Source: Desulfovibrionales bacterium
GTDB taxonomy: Bacteria > Desulfobacterota > Desulfovibrionia > Desulfovibrionales > Desulfomicrobiaceae
Direction: 5' to 3'
NCBI GenBank assembly: GCA_012729655.1
Contig: JAAYCS010000205.1
Location: 1-35,455 of the forward strand
DNA length: 35,455 nt
Of this stretch, positions 5,761 to 12,823 are shown piece after piece. Position 1 is the first letter of the stretch. The number at the start of each line of letters is the position of its first letter. The notes beneath the pieces were generated by a model that saw nothing but the letters and a program-made list of their open reading frames with translations, did no database searches and was not told the origin of the DNA. A program made the position numbers and the translations under genes.

Positions 5761-7173
5761 ATGCGCACCAACGACATCGCCCTCGTCGGGTTGGCCACCA
5801 TGGGACAAAATCTGGCCCTGAACATGGACCGCAACGGGTTCGCCGTCATTGTGTGCAACCGCACATGGGGCAGGACCGAGGAATTCATGGCTGGCCCGGC
5901 CCGGGAAACGTCCATCGTTGCAGCGCGCGACCTGAAGGCCTGCGCAGCCTCCCTGACCAGACCCCGCAAAATCTTCCTCATGGTCAAGGCCGGCGACGCC
6001 GTGGACAAATTGATAGACGAGATCGTTCCCTTCCTGGAGCCAGGCGACGTGATCATGGACGGGGGCAACTCGCACTTCCAGGACACGGAGCGCCGCATCC
6101 GGGACCTGCAGGGTGCGGGCATTTTCTTTCTGGGAGTGGGCGTTTCGGGAGGGGAAAAAGGTGCGCTCCTGGGGCCAAGCATCATGCCTGGCGGGGACCG
6201 GGTGGGATGGGGGCAGGTTTCGTCCATTTTGGAATCCATTGCCGCCAGAAGCGCCGATGGCCGCCCCTGCACGGACTACATGGGCGCGGGCGGGGCCGGA
6301 CATTTCGTCAAGATGGTGCACAACGGCATCGAATACGCGGTCATGCAGCTCATTGCCGAAACCTACGACCTGTTGGTCCGCGGGCACGGATACCCGGATG
6401 AACAGGCGGCCAAGATTTTCAGAACCTGGAACAGAGGGCCAGGATCCTCCTATCTCCTCGAAATCACGTCCCACATCCTCGGCACCATAGACCCATCCTC
6501 GGGCCAACCCATCCTCGGTTCCATCGTGGATGCGGCAGGGAGCAAAGGGACTGGGTTGTGGACCACGCAGACCTCCCTGGCCTTGGGCGTGCCGGCCCCG
6601 ACCATCACGGCTGCGGTGGAAGCACGGCTCATCTCCGGCCTGCGGGCGGAACGCCTGCACGCCGGCGCCCTGCCCGGGGTACTGACAAATCCCGAAGCTT
6701 TGTCTGACGGGGGCGACAGCCTTGGACAGGCCCTCTTGACCGCCACCCTCATGGCCTATGCCCAGGGGTTTGCCCTGCTCCAGGCAGCCGAGGCAGCCTG
6801 GTCCTGGGGACTCGACCCGGTGCGCATCGCCCGGGTCTGGAGAGAAGGGTGCATCATCCGGGCCGCGTTCCTGGATACCCTGGCAGAGGCTCTTTCCCAT
6901 CCTGGATTGCCCAACCTGCTCCAGGCCGCCACCATGAGGGAGACTTTTTCACGCGGCGGGTCGCATCTGCGCCAGGCCGTGGCCCTTGCTGCCCGCCAAG
7001 GCGTCCCGGCCCCGGCCCTGGCCTCGAGCCTGGCCTATTACGATGCCTATCGCAGCGCGCGCCTGCCAGCGAACCTGATCCAGGCCCAGCGGGATTATTT
7101 CGGGTACCATGGATTCGAACGACTGGACAGTCCCGGCACATTTCACGGACCATGGAACAATGAACGGCAATAG
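5761..7173 (+). CDS. gnd: 6-phosphogluconate dehydrogenase, decarboxylating
   Basis: This enzyme oxidises and decarboxylates 6-phosphogluconate to ribulose 5-phosphate, usually with NADP+, in the oxidative pentose phosphate pathway (cytoplasm). The 470-residue length matches the classical family (about 470). The Rossmann motif GLATMGQNLALN starts at residue 10. MDGGNSHFQDT is near residue 100 and GVGVSGGEKGALLGPSIMPGG near 125-145. The catalytic region GHFVKMVHNGIEY contains Lys184, and the substrate-binding C-terminus includes AQRDYFGYHGFERLD. The start at 5761 is chosen because homology begins there and GGGGAAA stands about 10 bases upstream. The frame remains open upstream for over 100 codons, but that translation has no family character. 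Its 3' end overlaps the first PilZ gene by 14 bases. Confidence 0.95.
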   Translation: MRTNDIALVGLATMGQNLALNMDRNGFAVIVCNRTWGRTEEFMAGPARETSIVAARDLKACAASLTRPRKIFLMVKAGDAVDKLIDEIVPFLEPGDVIMDGGNSHFQDTERRIRDLQGAGIFFLGVGVSGGEKGALLGPSIMPGGDRVGWGQVSSILESIAARSADGRPCTDYMGAGGAGHFVKMVHNGIEYAVMQLIAETYDLLVRGHGYPDEQAAKIFRTWNRGPGSSYLLEITSHILGTIDPSSGQPILGSIVDAAGSKGTGLWTTQTSLALGVPAPTITAAVEARLISGLRAERLHAGALPGVLTNPEALSDGGDSLGQALLTATLMAYAQGFALLQAAEAAWSWGLDPVRIARVWREGCIIRAAFLDTLAEALSHPGLPNLLQAATMRETFSRGGSHLRQAVALAARQGVPAPALASSLAYYDAYRSARLPANLIQAQRDYFGYHGFERLDSPGTFHGPWNNERQ

Positions 7174-7495
7174 ACGCCATTGGCCACGCCAGCAGGTCAG
7201 CGTGCCGTGCCTTGTCGATACCCCAGAAAACGGGGAGGGAGCATCCTCGGCCCGTATCCTGAACATATGCCCCGGCGGCGTGATGCTTGAGGCGGATCAG
7301 GCCTTCATGCCAGGCCAACGCCTGACCATAGTGCTGGAACACGGTCCGGACGCCCTCCTGTTCGAATCCATGGGGGTGATGACGGGATTTGTGCGCTGGA
7401 ACCAGATCGCGGATCCCGAGAATCCGTCGCACTATCATGTCGGCGTCGCCCTGGAGCGCGACCTTCCACGCAGGATTTTCATGACTGAGCACTGA
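7160..7495 (+). CDS. Single-domain PilZ protein (first of a tandem pair)
   Basis: This is a 111-residue cytoplasmic protein consisting of one PilZ domain, a family that binds cyclic di-GMP and acts on motility, adhesion or envelope processes through partner proteins. The c-di-GMP-binding arginine motif RxxxR is present as RHWPR near the N-terminus. The second motif, usually (D/N)xSxxG, reads NICPGG with Cys in place of Ser. Downstream beta-strands such as VMLEADQAF and GFVRWNQI match the PilZ fold. The start at 7160 puts the RxxxR motif close to the N-terminus and overlaps the gnd stop by 14 bases; an upstream ATG at 7109 would add 17 residues. It is clearly related to the next gene, sharing ARI-NI--GG, EAD and VRW-QI positions, so the pair probably arose by tandem duplication. 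Confidence 0.85.
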   Translation: MNGNRRHWPRQQVSVPCLVDTPENGEGASSARILNICPGGVMLEADQAFMPGQRLTIVLEHGPDALLFESMGVMTGFVRWNQIADPENPSHYHVGVALERDLPRRIFMTEH

Positions 7496-7600: not shown

Positions 7601-7948
7601 ATGCCTCTGCACATGCCGAAAAAAAGAAAATGGGAACGGTACGGATGCCTGATACCCTGCCGCATCATTCCTGTGGACCATCCCCAGATGACCGTCTCCG
7701 CCCGGATCATCAACATCGGAAGGGGCGGCCTGCTGGTCGAGGCCGATTACAATTTCAATCCCGATGACAGGGTGTGCATCCGGATCAATCCCGACGCCGA
7801 GTTGGAACGCTTTGACGTGGGTGGCGACATCCAGGGCACCGTGCGCTGGGGCCAGATTGACCCGGCCTCGCTCATGGGACTTTTCTATGTAGGCATTGAA
7901 TTCGACGATCTTCTGCCCCTCAAACAGGCCATGGACCACCAGACCTGA
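7601..7948 (+). CDS. Single-domain PilZ protein (second of a tandem pair)
   Basis: This is a 115-residue PilZ-domain protein, a likely cyclic di-GMP receptor. The arginine motif is RKWER at residues 9-13 and the second motif reads NIGRGG, with Gly at the usual Ser position. The segments GLLVEADYNF and GTVRWGQIDP align with those of the preceding PilZ protein. The ATG at 7601 has AAAGGA seven bases upstream, inside a palindrome; a second ATG four codons later is possible. A 105-base gap separates it from the first PilZ gene, so it may have its own control. No output domain is attached, so function must depend on a partner. No flagellar, pilus or polysaccharide gene is adjacent. Confidence 0.87.
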   Translation: MPLHMPKKRKWERYGCLIPCRIIPVDHPQMTVSARIINIGRGGLLVEADYNFNPDDRVCIRINPDAELERFDVGGDIQGTVRWGQIDPASLMGLFYVGIEFDDLLPLKQAMDHQT

Positions 7949-8058: not shown

Positions 8059-8082
8059 GTCCGGATCCCCGGATTTCCGGAC
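8059..8082 (-). terminator. Hairpin at the end of the cytochrome gene, weak terminator candidate
   Basis: GTCCGGA (8059-8065) and TCCGGAC (8076-8082) pair perfectly around a ten-base loop and touch the cytochrome stop codon. On the minus strand the downstream sequence AAACTTTCC is only weakly T-rich. It lies in the 133-base gap between convergent genes, so it may serve as a termination or RNA-stabilising structure. Confidence 0.3.
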
Positions 8083-8357
8083 TACTGCTGGCACAATTCC
8101 TTGCGGCGGGATTCCTGGGCCAGATACCGCGACACAGCGTCCACCTCCACGGGTGTCAGCAGTTCAGGCTGGTAGGCCACCATGCGTTCCACCATCCCTT
8201 TCCACCAGGCCCTGTCGCTGGAAGCCACGTCACAATTCTTGGCCAGGTCATGACAGCCCTGGCAGCGCTGCAACACCAAGGCTCGGATGTCCGTGGCGCC
8301 GGCCAGGCAGGCCAGCATCGCCAGGAATACAACGACGGTTCCGAGGACGTATTTCAT
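8082..8357 (-). CDS. Small monohaem c-type cytochrome, exported
   Basis: This 91-residue protein has a short N-terminal hydrophobic signal (residues 1-21, MKYVLGTVVVFLAMLACLAG) and one CxxCH haem-binding motif, CQGCH at residues 32-36. The haem would be attached covalently in the periplasm. Met55 or Met59 (WWKGMVERMV) could be the sixth iron ligand. Two extra cysteines (43 and 89) might form a disulfide. The ATG at 8357 is chosen over the one at 8363 because AAGGAGG is seven bases upstream of it. It is shorter than standard class I cytochromes and is best described as a minimal cytochrome c domain. A signal-peptidase II site is conceivable at Cys17 but the lipobox is not canonical. It is transcribed divergently from the rhodanese-diiron gene, and a redox link between them is speculative. 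Confidence 0.82.
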   Translation of the reverse strand: MKYVLGTVVVFLAMLACLAGATDIRALVLQRCQGCHDLAKNCDVASSDRAWWKGMVERMVAYQPELLTPVEVDAVSRYLAQESRRKELCQQ

Positions 8358-8570: not shown

Positions 8571-9401
8571 ATGAGCCGCAACGTGATCAACATTTACCCT
8601 GACGAACTGGAAGAATTCAGGGCCAAGACCAGGGAACGAAACTATCTTCTGGTGGATGTGCGCCAGCCCTTGGAATATGCCAACGGCCATATTCCCGGAG
8701 CCCAGCTCATCCCTCTGCCGGAAATAGAAAAACGACTCGAGGAACTCGATGGGGACAAAAACCTCATTCTCTATTGCCGCACCGGCGGCAGATCCGCTGT
8801 TGCCGCGGCCCTGATCAAGGACGCCGCCCCCCGCCAGGGCACTATTTACAATCTTGTGGGAGGCATAACAGGCTGGGAAGGCAAGGCCCTGAAGGACATC
8901 CCCCATCTGGAACTCTTCCCCCGGGACATGCCCCTGGCCCAGACCCTGTACCGGGCCATGAACATGGAGAAAGGGGCCTTTCTCTTCTACGGCGATCTGG
9001 CCGAGGAGTACAAAGATTCGGAACTGGGCCGCCTGCTCCAGGACATGGGCGGGATGGAAGAGAAACATGCCCGCAGCATCTTCACATACTGGCAAAAACA
9101 CGCCCCGGCCCCCAGCAGGGACACCTTCGATGAACTGTTCGAGCGTCTGGACGGTCGGATCATGGAGGGCGGCAAGCCCGTCTCGGCCTGGATGGCCCGG
9201 CTGGGCAAGGACCCCAAGGACCGCGTGCTGCGTCTCATGGAGCTGGCCTGCGAAATCGAGTATTATGCCTATGACCTGTACCGGGGGCTGGCCAGGCGGG
9301 ACAAGGATGCGGAGGCGGTCCAGACCTACCTTCTGTTGGCGGAGCAGGAAAAGGCCCACGTCCGGATCATCTCCAAGGCTCTGGAGCGAGTCGTCGGGTG
9401 A
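8571..9401 (+). CDS. Rhodanese domain fused to a ferritin-like diiron domain
   Basis: This is a 276-residue two-domain protein. Residues 1-105 form a rhodanese domain: VDVRQPLEYANGHIPGA and the active-site loop CRTGGRS, with Cys69 able to carry a persulfide. Residues 120-276 form a four-helix ferritin/rubrerythrin-like domain. It carries carboxylate/histidine ligands in the usual order: Glu133, Glu163-x-x-His166, Glu228/Glu230 and Glu260-x-x-His263. There is no rubredoxin domain and no signal peptide, so it should be cytoplasmic. Known rubrerythrins reduce peroxide in anaerobes and rhodaneses transfer sulfane sulfur; the combined role (oxidative or sulfur stress) is inference. The start at 8571 has GAGGA six bases upstream. 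Its TGA overlaps the GTG start of the DUF362 gene, so the two are translationally coupled. Confidence 0.9.
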   Translation: MSRNVINIYPDELEEFRAKTRERNYLLVDVRQPLEYANGHIPGAQLIPLPEIEKRLEELDGDKNLILYCRTGGRSAVAAALIKDAAPRQGTIYNLVGGITGWEGKALKDIPHLELFPRDMPLAQTLYRAMNMEKGAFLFYGDLAEEYKDSELGRLLQDMGGMEEKHARSIFTYWQKHAPAPSRDTFDELFERLDGRIMEGGKPVSAWMARLGKDPKDRVLRLMELACEIEYYAYDLYRGLARRDKDAEAVQTYLLLAEQEKAHVRIISKALERVVG

Positions 9402-10309
9402 TCCCTGTCTTCCTGGACCACGCCTCGGACTACATCCAGGCGGCCCAGACGGTCCGGACTCTGCTCAAGGCCATCCTGCCGCCCCCTCGCGGCCTCAGGA
9501 TTCTGCTCAAACCCAACTTTGTCTCCCTGCGCCACGCCGGCCTGGCCTGCACCCATGCCCGGATCATCGCGGCGGCTGCCGAGTATTGTCAGGACCTGGG
9601 CGCCCGGGTGACTGTCGGCGATTCCCCTGCCTTCGGAACGGCGGAACGCATAGCCAGGGAAATCGGCCTGACCGGGCTGTTGGTCCCCCTGAACGTTCCG
9701 GTCATGACGTTGAACCGGGGCGTGCGGGTCCAGAGCGGAAATGTCACGATCCCGGTTTCAACCCGCGCCCTGCAGGCAGACCTCATCCTCAACCTGCCCA
9801 AATTCAAAGCCCACTCCCAGATGCGCTTCAGCGGCGCGGTGAAAAATCTGTTCGGATGCGTTCCAGGTGTGCACAAGGCCTGGCTCCATGCGCGGCACGG
9901 GGACAAGGGCGCGCGGTTCACGGAAATGATCCGCGGTTTGCAGGCCGTCCTGCCACCCACGGTCAGTCTGCTCGATGGGGTCGAGGCCATGCATCGCACA
10001 GGCCCCATCATGGGCGAGAAGTTCGACCTGGGCTTTCTGGGGGCAAGCGTCGACAGCGCGGCCCTGGACACAGCCGCGGGACTGGCCCTGGGAGCAAAAG
10101 CAGAAATGTTTCCGATCTGGATGGAGTGCCTCCGTGCAGGGTTGCCGGGCGCGGACCCGGGCCAGCTGGCCTTCCCCCTTCTGCAACCATCTGAATTCGA
10201 TACAAAGGGCTTCATCCTTCCGGCCACCCTTAAACCAGAATCCTTCCGACCGGACGTTCTCGCCAAGAGCCTGACCAAGCGCCTGTGGATGTCCTGGAGA
10301 AAAGACTGA
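9398..10309 (+). CDS. DUF362 domain protein
   Basis: This is a 303-residue protein of the DUF362 family, whose biochemical activity is not settled; members often accompany iron-sulfur proteins. Family features seen are ILLKPNFVS (residues 35-45), VTVGDSPAFGT (about 70), ADLILNLPKFKAHSQMRFSGAVKNLFG (core motif, about 128-155) and the GVEAM segment near 193. Unlike some relatives it has no ferredoxin-type cysteine clusters. It begins with GTG at 9398, overlapping the stop of the rhodanese-diiron gene by four bases (GTGA); GGAG lies about 10 bases before. The overlap implies co-production and perhaps a joint function. The C-terminal 60 residues have little recognisable character. Confidence 0.85.
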   Translation: MIPVFLDHASDYIQAAQTVRTLLKAILPPPRGLRILLKPNFVSLRHAGLACTHARIIAAAAEYCQDLGARVTVGDSPAFGTAERIAREIGLTGLLVPLNVPVMTLNRGVRVQSGNVTIPVSTRALQADLILNLPKFKAHSQMRFSGAVKNLFGCVPGVHKAWLHARHGDKGARFTEMIRGLQAVLPPTVSLLDGVEAMHRTGPIMGEKFDLGFLGASVDSAALDTAAGLALGAKAEMFPIWMECLRAGLPGADPGQLAFPLLQPSEFDTKGFILPATLKPESFRPDVLAKSLTKRLWMSWRKD

Positions 10310-10528: not shown

Positions 10529-12823
10529 ATGAAGCGCTGGAAATGGATCATCACCGGAGGAGTGCAGGGCGTCGGCTTTCGGCCTTGCGTCTACAGGTCT
10601 GCCCTGCAGGCCCGGGTCACCGGCCGGGTGGCCAACACCCCTCAGGGCGTGGTCATCGAGATCCAGGGCAGCGACGAGAGTCTCGCCGCCTTTGAGAGGA
10701 TCTTTTCGGCCAACCTTCCTCCCCTGGCCAGGATCGTGACCTGGGAGCGGGAAAGGCTGCCCTCCATGGACCGGGAATCGGGATTCCTGATCATGCAGAG
10801 CACCGGCGGCCACGGGCATCAGGTTCTAATCAGCCCGGACGTGGCCACCTGCGCCGAATGCCTGGCGGACATCCAGGACCCTGGAGGCCGACGCCACCGC
10901 TACGCCTTCACCAACTGCACCAACTGCGGACCGCGCTACACCATCACCCGCTCCATTCCCTACGACCGGGCCACCACATCCATGGCCTGTTTTCCCCTTT
11001 GCCCGGCGTGCACGTCGGAATACGAGGACCCCCTGAACCGCCGCTTTCACGCCCAGCCCAATGCCTGCCCCGAGTGCGGTCCACGGCTGTGGCTGACTGA
11101 CCGGAACGGCTCGCGGCTGGCGGCCCAGGACCAGGCCATCGTCGAAGCCGCGCGCCTTCTGCTCGAGGGTCGGCTGTTGGCCATGAAAGGTCTCGGCGGA
11201 TTCCACCTTGCCTGCGACGCGACGAACCAGGCATCCGTGGCTGAATTGCGTGCCCGCAAAAACCGCAGGGACAAGCCCCTGGCCGTCATGGTCCGTGACC
11301 TCCCTGCGGCCCGGGCCTTGTGCCATATCTCGGCAGCCGAAGAAACGCTTCTGACCGGGACCCAGCGGCCCATTGTCCTGCTGCGGTCCAGGGCAGGCAC
11401 CAACCTGCCGGGACTGGCTCCTGACACGGAATACCTCGGCCTCATGCTCCCCTACACCCCGATGCACCATGTCCTGTTTTCGGAACTCTCCGCCCAGGCC
11501 AAGCACCAGACAGCGGCCCTGGTCATGACCTCCGGGAACATGAGTTCAGAACCCATCTGCCTCGGCAACCGCGAGGCCCTCCGCCGCCTGGGGGCAGTGG
11601 CCGACTGTTTCCTTTTTCATGACCGGGACATCCTCATCCGCTGCGACGATTCGGTCCTGCGCTGCGTGGATGACAGTCCCCAATTTCTCCGCCGGGGCCG
11701 GGGGTTCACGCCCTGGCCCGTGGATTTGACCGGGGACGGTCCCTCGATCCTGGGCGTGGGACCACAGCTGAAGAACACCATCTGTCTGACCAAAGGCAGT
11801 CAGGCCTTTGTCTCCCAACACCTCGGCGACCTGGAGAATCTCGAAACCTTCACCTTTTTCCAGGAGATCGTCACCCACCTGCGCAACATCCTGCAGGTGA
11901 CGCCACAGGCCGTGATCCACGACCTCCATCCCGACTTTTTGAGCACCGGGTTTGCACTCCAATCCGGCCTTCCCTGTCTGCCCCTGCAACACCACTTTGC
12001 CCATATCCATGCGGTTCTGGCCGAAAACCAGCATGCGGGTCCGGCCATCGGCCTGGCGCTGGATGGAACTGGCCTGGGCGACGACGGGACCATCTGGGGC
12101 GGCGAAGCGCTGATGGTGGATACTGGCAGCCTAGGACATCAGCGAGTGGCCCGATTCTCGCATGTCATGCTCCCGGGTGGGGACCTGGCCGCACGCGAAC
12201 CGTGGCGCGTGGCCAGATCCTATCTCCACGCCCTGGGCATCCTGGAGCCGGCACACAAGCCCTGGCCCTGGCTGGAAAGCAACTCCCGGGCGGACAGGAT
12301 CGTGTCCCAGATGCTTGACCGCAGACTGAATGCCCCCCTGTCCTCGAGCTGCGGCCGCCTTTTTGACGCCGTATCGGCCCTGCTCGGCCTGTGTCAGCTG
12401 GTTTCCTACGAAGGGCAGGCCGCCATCAGGCTGGAGGCAGCGCAAGACAACCAGGAAGAAAATGGATATGTGTGCCCCATAGTGGAGCATGAGGGATGCT
12501 GGGAGCTGGACACCCTGTCCCTTTTTGCCCAGGTTCACGCCCAGTGGCTGGACAACGAGCCGCCGGGGCTGATCAGCAGGCGCTTTCATCTTGGCCTCAT
12601 GCGCGGGCTGACAGAGCTCTGTGCCAGGCTGAGCCAGCAATGGTCCTGCCCCACCGTGGCCTTGAGCGGCGGAGTGATGCAGAACCTGACCCTGGCCCGC
12701 GAGCTGCCCCGCCTCTTGGCTGACCAAGGGCTGCATGTGCTCACCCACCGCTTCCTGCCGCCCAATGATGCCTGCATCTCCCTCGGACAGGCCGCCTATG
12801 GCAGGCTGGCTCTCAAACCTTAA
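10529..12823 (+). CDS. hypF: Carbamoyltransferase HypF, [NiFe]-hydrogenase maturation
   Basis: HypF makes the cyanide ligands of [NiFe] hydrogenases: it activates carbamoyl phosphate to carbamoyl-adenylate and passes the carbamoyl group to HypE. At 764 residues it has the full family architecture. The acylphosphatase domain contains GGVQGVGFRPCVYRSA (residues 10-25). Two zinc-finger pairs follow: CAEC/CTNC and CPAC/CPEC (about 105-190). The YrdC-like domain has GLGGFHLACDA and RKNRRDKPLAVM. The C-terminal Kae1-like domain has HHFAHIHAVLAEN, LDGTGLGDDGTIWGGEA and SGGVMQNL. The start MKRWKWIITGG matches the usual N-terminus. No other hyp or hydrogenase gene is in the window. The 219-base interval before it (10310-10528) holds no gene and no clear promoter. 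The sppA gene begins 13 bases after its stop. Confidence 0.96.
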   Translation: MKRWKWIITGGVQGVGFRPCVYRSALQARVTGRVANTPQGVVIEIQGSDESLAAFERIFSANLPPLARIVTWERERLPSMDRESGFLIMQSTGGHGHQVLISPDVATCAECLADIQDPGGRRHRYAFTNCTNCGPRYTITRSIPYDRATTSMACFPLCPACTSEYEDPLNRRFHAQPNACPECGPRLWLTDRNGSRLAAQDQAIVEAARLLLEGRLLAMKGLGGFHLACDATNQASVAELRARKNRRDKPLAVMVRDLPAARALCHISAAEETLLTGTQRPIVLLRSRAGTNLPGLAPDTEYLGLMLPYTPMHHVLFSELSAQAKHQTAALVMTSGNMSSEPICLGNREALRRLGAVADCFLFHDRDILIRCDDSVLRCVDDSPQFLRRGRGFTPWPVDLTGDGPSILGVGPQLKNTICLTKGSQAFVSQHLGDLENLETFTFFQEIVTHLRNILQVTPQAVIHDLHPDFLSTGFALQSGLPCLPLQHHFAHIHAVLAENQHAGPAIGLALDGTGLGDDGTIWGGEALMVDTGSLGHQRVARFSHVMLPGGDLAAREPWRVARSYLHALGILEPAHKPWPWLESNSRADRIVSQMLDRRLNAPLSSSCGRLFDAVSALLGLCQLVSYEGQAAIRLEAAQDNQEENGYVCPIVEHEGCWELDTLSLFAQVHAQWLDNEPPGLISRRFHLGLMRGLTELCARLSQQWSCPTVALSGGVMQNLTLARELPRLLADQGLHVLTHRFLPPNDACISLGQAAYGRLALKP

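Follow-up and report, generated by a model that had tools for sequence, protein, structure and literature searches.

A rhodanese-diiron fusion protein with probable selenocysteine relatives, and its linkage to a DUF362 gene in Desulfovibrionales

Several redox enzymes that act on persulfides carry a rhodanese domain within the same chain. The persulfide dioxygenase-rhodanese BpPRF (PDB entry 5ve3) and the coenzyme A (CoA)-persulfide reductases NPSR (3nta), CoADR-RHD (3icr) and 8a56 are all single-chain fusions of this kind, in which the partner domain is either a mononuclear iron domain of the metallo-beta-lactamase (MBL) type or a flavoenzyme. Diiron proteins of the rubrerythrin, nigerythrin and bacterioferritin type (PF02915; 1yuz, 2fzf, 1vjx) are four-helix bundles with two E-x-x-H motifs and two further glutamates, and rubrerythrins have an additional Glu. 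Here we describe a protein that combines a rhodanese domain with a predicted ferritin-like diiron domain. It is encoded in a stretch of 35,455 nucleotides from a Desulfovibrionales bacterium of the family Desulfomicrobiaceae (contig JAAYCS010000205.1 of assembly GCA_012729655.1), which we refer to as the window. The fusion probably belongs to a redox family in which selenocysteine (Sec) and Cys are exchangeable at the catalytic position. The gene and its parts are as follows.

8571..9401, + strand: rhodanese - ferritin-like diiron fusion protein of 276 residues, clade A, ATG start (open reading frame, Pfam, tree and AlphaFold2 model)
8580..8891, + strand: rhodanese domain, residues 4-107 (PF00581; structure alignment to 3tp9, Z 16.5)
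8775..8777, + strand: codon of the catalytic-loop Cys69 (CRTGGRS), which is TGA in 32 relatives
8922..9398, + strand: predicted diiron domain, a ferritin-like four-helix bundle formed by residues 118-276, which contains E133, E163, H166, E230, E260 and H263 and the invariant E199-G200-G201

The original prediction, made from the letters of the DNA, described an intact persulfide-type Cys loop and a complete set of diiron ligands in one chain, and both are present. The fusion matches Pfam Rhodanese (PF00581) over residues 14-104 with 74.3 bits (cut-off 22.2) and Rubrerythrin (PF02915) with 35.5 bits (cut-off 22.8); its catalytic loop reads YCRTGGRS, with Cys69 encoded by TGC. The ligand pattern E, ExxH, E, ExxH is complete (E133, E163-H166, E230, E260-H263), and the six candidate ligands were invariant in 17 of 17 and then in 49 of 49 aligned rows, so that the loss of ligands among orthologues, named beforehand as a ground for rejection, was not seen. 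The E199-G200-G201 motif of the helical domain is likewise invariant, and in the rhodanese domain the same holds for D29, V30, R31, E35, G43, P48, C69, G72, R74, S75 and G98; the 49 rows were hand-picked for diversity and are all of the Cys type, a selection that makes C69 invariant from the start.

AlphaFold2 models the fusion confidently as two domains, with a predicted local distance difference test (pLDDT) score of 93.2. Structure comparison placed the rhodanese half closest to 3tp9, an MBL-rhodanese protein, and to single-domain rhodaneses, with persulfide reductases and the persulfide dioxygenase fusion among the next-closest structures. The helical half was closest to 2fzf, the Dps-like PA4880, nigerythrin and bacterioferritins. 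Because Z scores of about 15 are commonplace among helical bundles, the diiron claim is carried by the ligands rather than by the fold score. The complete ligand set is thus a statement about sequence and model, and the iron is predicted.

Of 150 genomes from the order Desulfovibrionales, 92 carry a fusion gene (E 1e-25), as do 75 of 297 genomes of the phylum (E 1e-30). A tree of 115 rows separated clade A (90 rows, including the window) from clade B (25 rows), with supported branches between them. The window's genome and a second genome of the same genus (G015) each hold one clade A copy and one clade B copy. In one Desulfomicrobium-type assembly the fusion gene is split over two frames (G010:C200:5867-6674; loci L029 and L092), which could be a sequencing error or a pseudogene.

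In 32 relatives the reading frame contains one in-frame TGA, each exactly at the catalytic Cys (YU..G.RS). These are three named loci (L100, L130, L139), one locus each in genomes G059 and G052, and loci in 27 further genomes; the phylum survey yielded 27 TGA-bearing fusion matches and all 27 had the codon at this position. The loci with TGA at the catalytic Cys are L100, L130, L139, L181, L182 and L184-L210. Every one of the phylum-survey sequences scores as clade B, and among the other five, L100 belongs to clade A and four belong to clade B, so Sec would be present in both clades. Another clade B fusion (L211, G284:C40) contains one in-frame TAG, which falls in the C-terminal part, away from the catalytic site.

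A stem resembling a selenocysteine insertion sequence (SECIS), with at least 5 pairs and a loop some 20-27 bases downstream of the TGA, was detected in 28 of 30 Sec genes. Among Cys genes it was present in 4 of 31 that share the RS[RQ]-A peptide and in 11 of a set of 117, the Cys sets including several loci from the same genomes. Synonymous-codon shuffles of the same 30 Sec genes kept the stem in 19.8 on average and in 25 at most. The motif filter was passed by 30 of the 32 Sec loci (L208 and L210 were missed), and the P values of this fixed-register test (7e-11 and 6e-19) are exploratory, the test having been devised after the sequences were viewed. A selB match above the cut-off was present in each of the 20 genomes examined, which comprised 17 of the 32 with TGA and three with Cys-type fusions only. 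The combination of TGA at the catalytic Cys, SECIS-like hairpin and selB describes the relatives, whereas the codon in the window is TGC. Judged from these sequences, many proteins of clade B, and one or more of clade A, are likely to be selenoproteins in which the residue does redox chemistry, and the fusion is probably a Sec/Cys-exchangeable redox family.

We also counted neighbouring genes within the examined flanks of 80 named fusion loci. Desulfoferrodoxin genes were seen 5 times against an expectation of 0.23, derived from 53 matches in 59 genomes (a weak 37-bit match at L142 was not counted), and flavodiiron protein genes 3 times against 0.30 expected; these families were picked post hoc, the models used for the background differed from those used for the loci, and the loci include close kin. 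Rubrerythrin and ferritin genes also recur beside the fusion, the latter at L085, L104, L105 and L142, and at least one strong match to the four families is present at 8 of the 80 loci (L070, L079, L085, L104, L105, L137, L142 and L143). We regard the enrichment of stress genes as indicative. A gene for a flavin adenine dinucleotide (FAD) oxidoreductase related to TIGR03169 shares the strand of the fusion and is no more than 600 bases away at 12 of the 29 Sec loci covered (of 32) versus 5 of 110 Cys loci, the latter again including several loci from the same genomes. Against TIGR03169 (cut-off 310), five of the six oxidoreductases scanned scored 252-282 bits and the sixth 100, all below the cut-off. 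At clade A loci of other Desulfobacterota, genes for DsbH/DUF255, MutY and a nitroreductase are recurrent. For the clustering of neighbours, hits of more than 92% identity had been removed as near-duplicates.

Our best explanation as a whole, to which we assign a probability of roughly 45%, is that the fusion is a (seleno)persulfide-rhodanese and diiron redox enzyme of anaerobes. The enzyme would be cytoplasmic. Its rhodanese loop would carry sulfane sulfur as a persulfide on Cys69, many members of the sister clade B would work through selenocysteine instead, and the adjoining diiron site would draw on the (seleno)persulfide or thiol, either for electrons or as a substrate. The most likely task would be to remove peroxide or O2, or else sulfane sulfur that is in excess and oxidised, and in part of the Sec clade the reducing power may come from the adjacent FAD oxidoreductase. 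We infer the iron occupancy, Sec incorporation, chemistry, location and direction of electron flow. Joint use of sulfane sulfur and a diiron centre in stress defence had been proposed for this locus from the outset, and the joint use is a reasonable reading of the conservation, the TGA at the Cys codon and the excess of desulfoferrodoxin and flavodiiron genes; a role in O2, peroxide or sulfane-sulfur stress goes no further than plausible. The probable selenocysteine relatives add strength to the redox reading, and the stress neighbours do so to a lesser degree.

Several observations weigh against this explanation. None of the four stress and iron families occurs in the examined flank of 72 of the 80 named loci, or among the 14 annotated open reading frames of the window (0.6-21.4 kb), and the fusion had no match in 58 of the 150 order genomes and 222 of the 297 phylum genomes at the thresholds used. 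The chain has no C-terminal rubredoxin-like domain (no RUBY_RBDX match; it ends at the last helix of the bundle), and the extra Glu of rubrerythrins was not identified in it; a rubrerythrin-like peroxidase cycle is therefore not simply transferable. As to selenocysteine, the hairpin signal follows in part from codon use, the energy of the best hairpin alone did not differ significantly between Sec and Cys genes (P = 0.06), and RNAalifold returned no consensus structure. The presence of selB is consistent with Sec but does not discriminate, as the gene is also found in the three Cys-only genomes.

The gene downstream of the fusion encodes a DUF362 protein, and the remaining features of the locus are as follows.

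9398..10309, + strand: DUF362 protein of 303 residues, with a predicted LarA-like fold and a GTG start that overlaps the fusion's TGA
9812..9889, + strand: DUF362 H139 - K149 - H164, unchanged across 18 rows and, by a weak profile alignment, candidates for the His/Lys/His motif of LarA
10529..12823, + strand: hypF, [NiFe]-hydrogenase maturation carbamoyltransferase (TIGR00143, 772 bits), the commoner conserved neighbour of DUF362
8082..8357, - strand: divergent small protein, exported and with a CxxCH motif; it is not conserved and is left out of the system

The original prediction took the GTGA overlap between the two genes as the mark of a two-protein system. The overlap itself is real, as the GTG at 9398 overlaps the fusion's stop codon TGA, and the same arrangement is found in 13 of 14 genomes of the genus with DUF362 (the exception is G001, locus L011). 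Fusion and DUF362 are adjacent in 14 of 16 genomes of the genus; the others are G005, with an intact fusion and no DUF362, and G010, with the two-frame split fusion and no DUF362. Across the order, DUF362 was found in 118 and hypF in 140 of the 150 genomes. A fusion of any clade is adjacent to DUF362 in 26 of the 70 genomes that have both, so unlinked genes, which had been proposed as refuting the coupling, are the rule among relatives at large, but clade A fusions are adjacent in 26 of 31 genomes with both, the exceptions being G017, G026 (4.7 kb apart), G130, G138 and G144. Among the 31, G082, G121 and G132 are absent from the tree and were assigned to clade A by genus, which they share with G122, and by profile score. 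The clade A pairs span three families (f1, f4 and f5), and their profile ends are 16 to 335 bases apart. DUF362 is present with no match to the fusion in 36 genomes, and the fusion without DUF362 in 22; these counts exclude DUF362 matches of less than 270 bits, which are distant paralogues in 12 further genomes, and 7 of the 22 carry such a match. At the named loci, DUF362 lies within the examined flanks of 7 of 80, all of them in Desulfovibrionales, and it was not seen near the fusion within the examined flanks of named loci outside this order.

DUF362 is also a neighbour of hypF. Of the 103 genomes that contain both genes, 53 have them on one strand with DUF362 no more than 2 kb upstream of hypF; the 103 include G028, where the two are on different contigs, and the linkage table omits the hypF matches of most genomes without DUF362. 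In 50 cases the profile ends are within 300 bases of each other and in 3 they are 1.4-1.5 kb apart. This pair lacks an adjacent fusion in 41 of the 53 genomes. The order fusion-DUF362-hypF is found in Desulfomicrobium, the fusion stands directly upstream of hypF without DUF362 in G005, G018 and G020, and hypF is not adjacent to 14 of the 26 pairs of fusion and DUF362, 12 of which are informative (the hypF of G003 lies on a different contig, and G008 yielded no hypF match). The three genes therefore occur in all pairwise combinations. Together, these counts show that the coupling of fusion and DUF362 holds but is limited to Desulfovibrionales, and that hypF is the other, more frequent neighbour of DUF362. 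The idea of a two-protein system is borne out in part. The distribution rules out DUF362 as an obligate partner, and DUF362 is not an obligate subunit of the fusion.

It could be argued that DUF362 and the fusion share no function, and that the GTGA overlap is a fortuitous compaction within one bacterial family. The low adjacency of fusions of any clade and the 36 and 22 genomes with one gene alone speak for this. The clade A pairs, which recur in three families with varied gap lengths, speak against it, and we consider it somewhat unlikely. DUF362 and the clade A fusion may instead act in one process, being joined in several Desulfovibrionales lineages and translation-coupled in Desulfomicrobium.

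The DUF362 protein matches PF04015 with 160.5 bits (cut-off 24). As had been noticed at first reading, it lacks ferredoxin cysteines: there is no CxxCxxC motif in the translation, which rules out a ferredoxin-type iron-sulfur protein. Its sole NCBIfam match at E 0.1 was the Npun_F2552 family (NF052623) with 173.6 bits, far under the 500-bit cut-off of that family. The model of the protein (pLDDT 91.5) matched eleven LarA-type entries and 4nar from T. maritima at Z 14.8-17, with the next unrelated structure at 6.7, and Foldseek matched it to a LarA-type structure at E 3e-6. A profile search of PDB sequences returned nothing at E 10 and a single-sequence search one match at E 0.15, so the likeness to LarA is shown by fold comparison only. 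In hhalign, H139 and K149 aligned with the LarA His-x9-Lys at 3% and 19% probability, and H164 was matched by spacing only. In LarA, the residues of interest are the tether Lys and the His residues of this motif. DUF362 is thus predicted to have the fold of LarA, a nickel-pincer enzyme, and its model shares the fold of the LarA/DUF2088 lactate racemase superfamily (CL0471). It differs from LarA in length (303 residues against about 390-500) and has no match to the Lar_N model, and use of the nickel-pincer cofactor is putative. Excerpts of one report place the DUF362 and LarA families in a common Pfam clan (PMC11770544).

Among the 150 order genomes, 130 have larC and 50 have LarA proper (Lar_N). 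DUF362 is found in 102 of the 130 larC-positive versus 4 of the 20 larC-negative genomes, with ancestry and genome size uncontrolled, and in two near-complete genomes (G006 and G011) DUF362 is present but larC gave no match, which weakens the case for a strict dependence of DUF362 on the nickel-pincer nucleotide. Many genomes of the order appear to hold larC, the nickel-pincer insertion gene, without a recognised LarA.

The odds that we attach to the alternatives are not mutually exclusive. One alternative keeps the chemistry on sulfur: the diiron site would oxidise or reduce persulfides delivered by the rhodanese loop and have no part in peroxide removal. The rhodanese domains of persulfide dioxygenases and reductases are among the closest solved structures, and the FAD oxidoreductase that neighbours the fusion in the Sec clade is a relative of the domain found fused to SelD. 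However, in the known fusions the partner is a mononuclear iron MBL or a flavin domain and not a diiron bundle, and genes for superoxide and O2 reduction are enriched beside the fusion; we find this alternative unlikely.

The proximity of hypF raises the idea that the fusion, DUF362 and HypF form one functional set that assists hydrogenase maturation. In such a set, the rhodanese domain would be in charge of cyanide or thiocyanate chemistry around HypE and HypF, or of sulfur; iron would be supplied or sensed by the diiron domain, and a step that involves nickel or a ligand would fall to DUF362. The 53 of 103 genomes with DUF362 upstream of hypF, the three with the fusion there and the arrangement of all three genes in Desulfomicrobium fit this idea, as does the predicted LarA fold, and a passage in a secondary source tells of a Desulfovibrio rhodanese mutant unable to use H2 (PMC7376266), although that rhodanese may not be a fusion. 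Yet 12 informative pairs of fusion and DUF362 do without an adjacent hypF, the fusion is not near DUF362 outside Desulfovibrionales at the loci examined, the three genes are unequally spread (hypF 140, DUF362 118 and fusion 92 of 150), and the adjacency may be operon drift. We judge a maturation role improbable. Equally improbable is that the fusion stores or delivers iron and sulfane sulfur for the assembly of iron-sulfur clusters or their repair after oxidative damage, for although one chain holds both ingredients, its fold is bacterioferritin-like with weak, sub-cut-off MbfA matches, and ferritin genes lie near four loci, the likely Sec at the sulfur-carrying position of 32 relatives would be typical of redox catalysis and not of sulfur donation, and no isc, suf or nif gene is among the roughly 20 annotated recurrent neighbour families, which make up a minority of the neighbour clusters.

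The preferred reading, a (seleno)persulfide and diiron redox enzyme, can be extended to a more complete proposal, which we hold to be distinctly doubtful: a previously undescribed family that couples a Sec/Cys persulfide to a diiron site, is driven in part by a SelD-type FAD oxidoreductase and serves anaerobes as a dedicated scavenger of peroxide or O2 that depends on sulfane sulfur or selenium, with a LarA-fold DUF362 linking it to HypF and [NiFe]-hydrogenase assembly. We found no description of the fusion in the available portions of the open-licence literature on rhodanese, rubrerythrin/ferritin-like proteins and selenoproteins. If the preferred reading is right, a Sec/Cys-exchangeable rhodanese-diiron enzyme joins the tools with which sulfate reducers meet O2 and sulfur stress, and the natural selenium variants offer a direct experimental handle on the coupling of persulfide and diiron chemistry. 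DUF362 is a testable lead, as an uncharacterised protein of predicted LarA fold repeatedly found beside hypF.

The window belongs to an assembly of 2.84 Mb that is 88.6% complete, and its nearest named relatives are three Desulfomicrobium records at 79-83% identity. A gene for an S49 peptidase and then one for a large FAD/iron-sulfur oxidoreductase follow 3' of hypF, and two adjacent small PilZ-domain proteins are encoded upstream of the fusion (7109-7495 and 7601-7948). The divergent small protein at 8082-8357 had been called an exported cytochrome c. It does have a hydrophobic N-terminus and a CQGCH motif, but its Pfam Cytochrome_CBB3 score is under the cut-off and it is not conserved: tblastn at E 1 against 24 loci in 18 genomes of the genus and family gave a single weak match of 34 residues (E 0.35, L183). 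On this basis it was ruled out as a third component.

Known systems resemble the fusion in different parts. Rhodanese-like selenoproteins of forms 1-5 likewise have Sec in a rhodanese-family protein, and forms 2 and 4 are given the same UxxG pattern (PMC13188914); the words "ferritin" and "rubrerythrin" are absent from the main text of that review. The model for a rhodanese-related (seleno)protein, NF041203 (cut-off 115), gave the window protein 23.3 bits and four relatives, two of them Sec-type, 26-38 bits, and the fusion does not reach the cut-off of TsoB (NF045694). With rubrerythrin-like diiron proteins the fusion shares the four-helix fold and the pattern of two E-x-x-H motifs and two further Glu; it differs from rubrerythrins in having an N-terminal rhodanese in place of a rubredoxin domain and an extra invariant EGG motif. 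Like 5ve3, 3nta, 3icr and 8a56, whose rhodanese domains are among the closest solved after 3tp9 and the single-domain proteins, it joins a rhodanese to a putative redox enzyme in a single chain. Unlike those persulfide dioxygenase and reductase fusions, its partner domain is a predicted ferritin-like diiron bundle.

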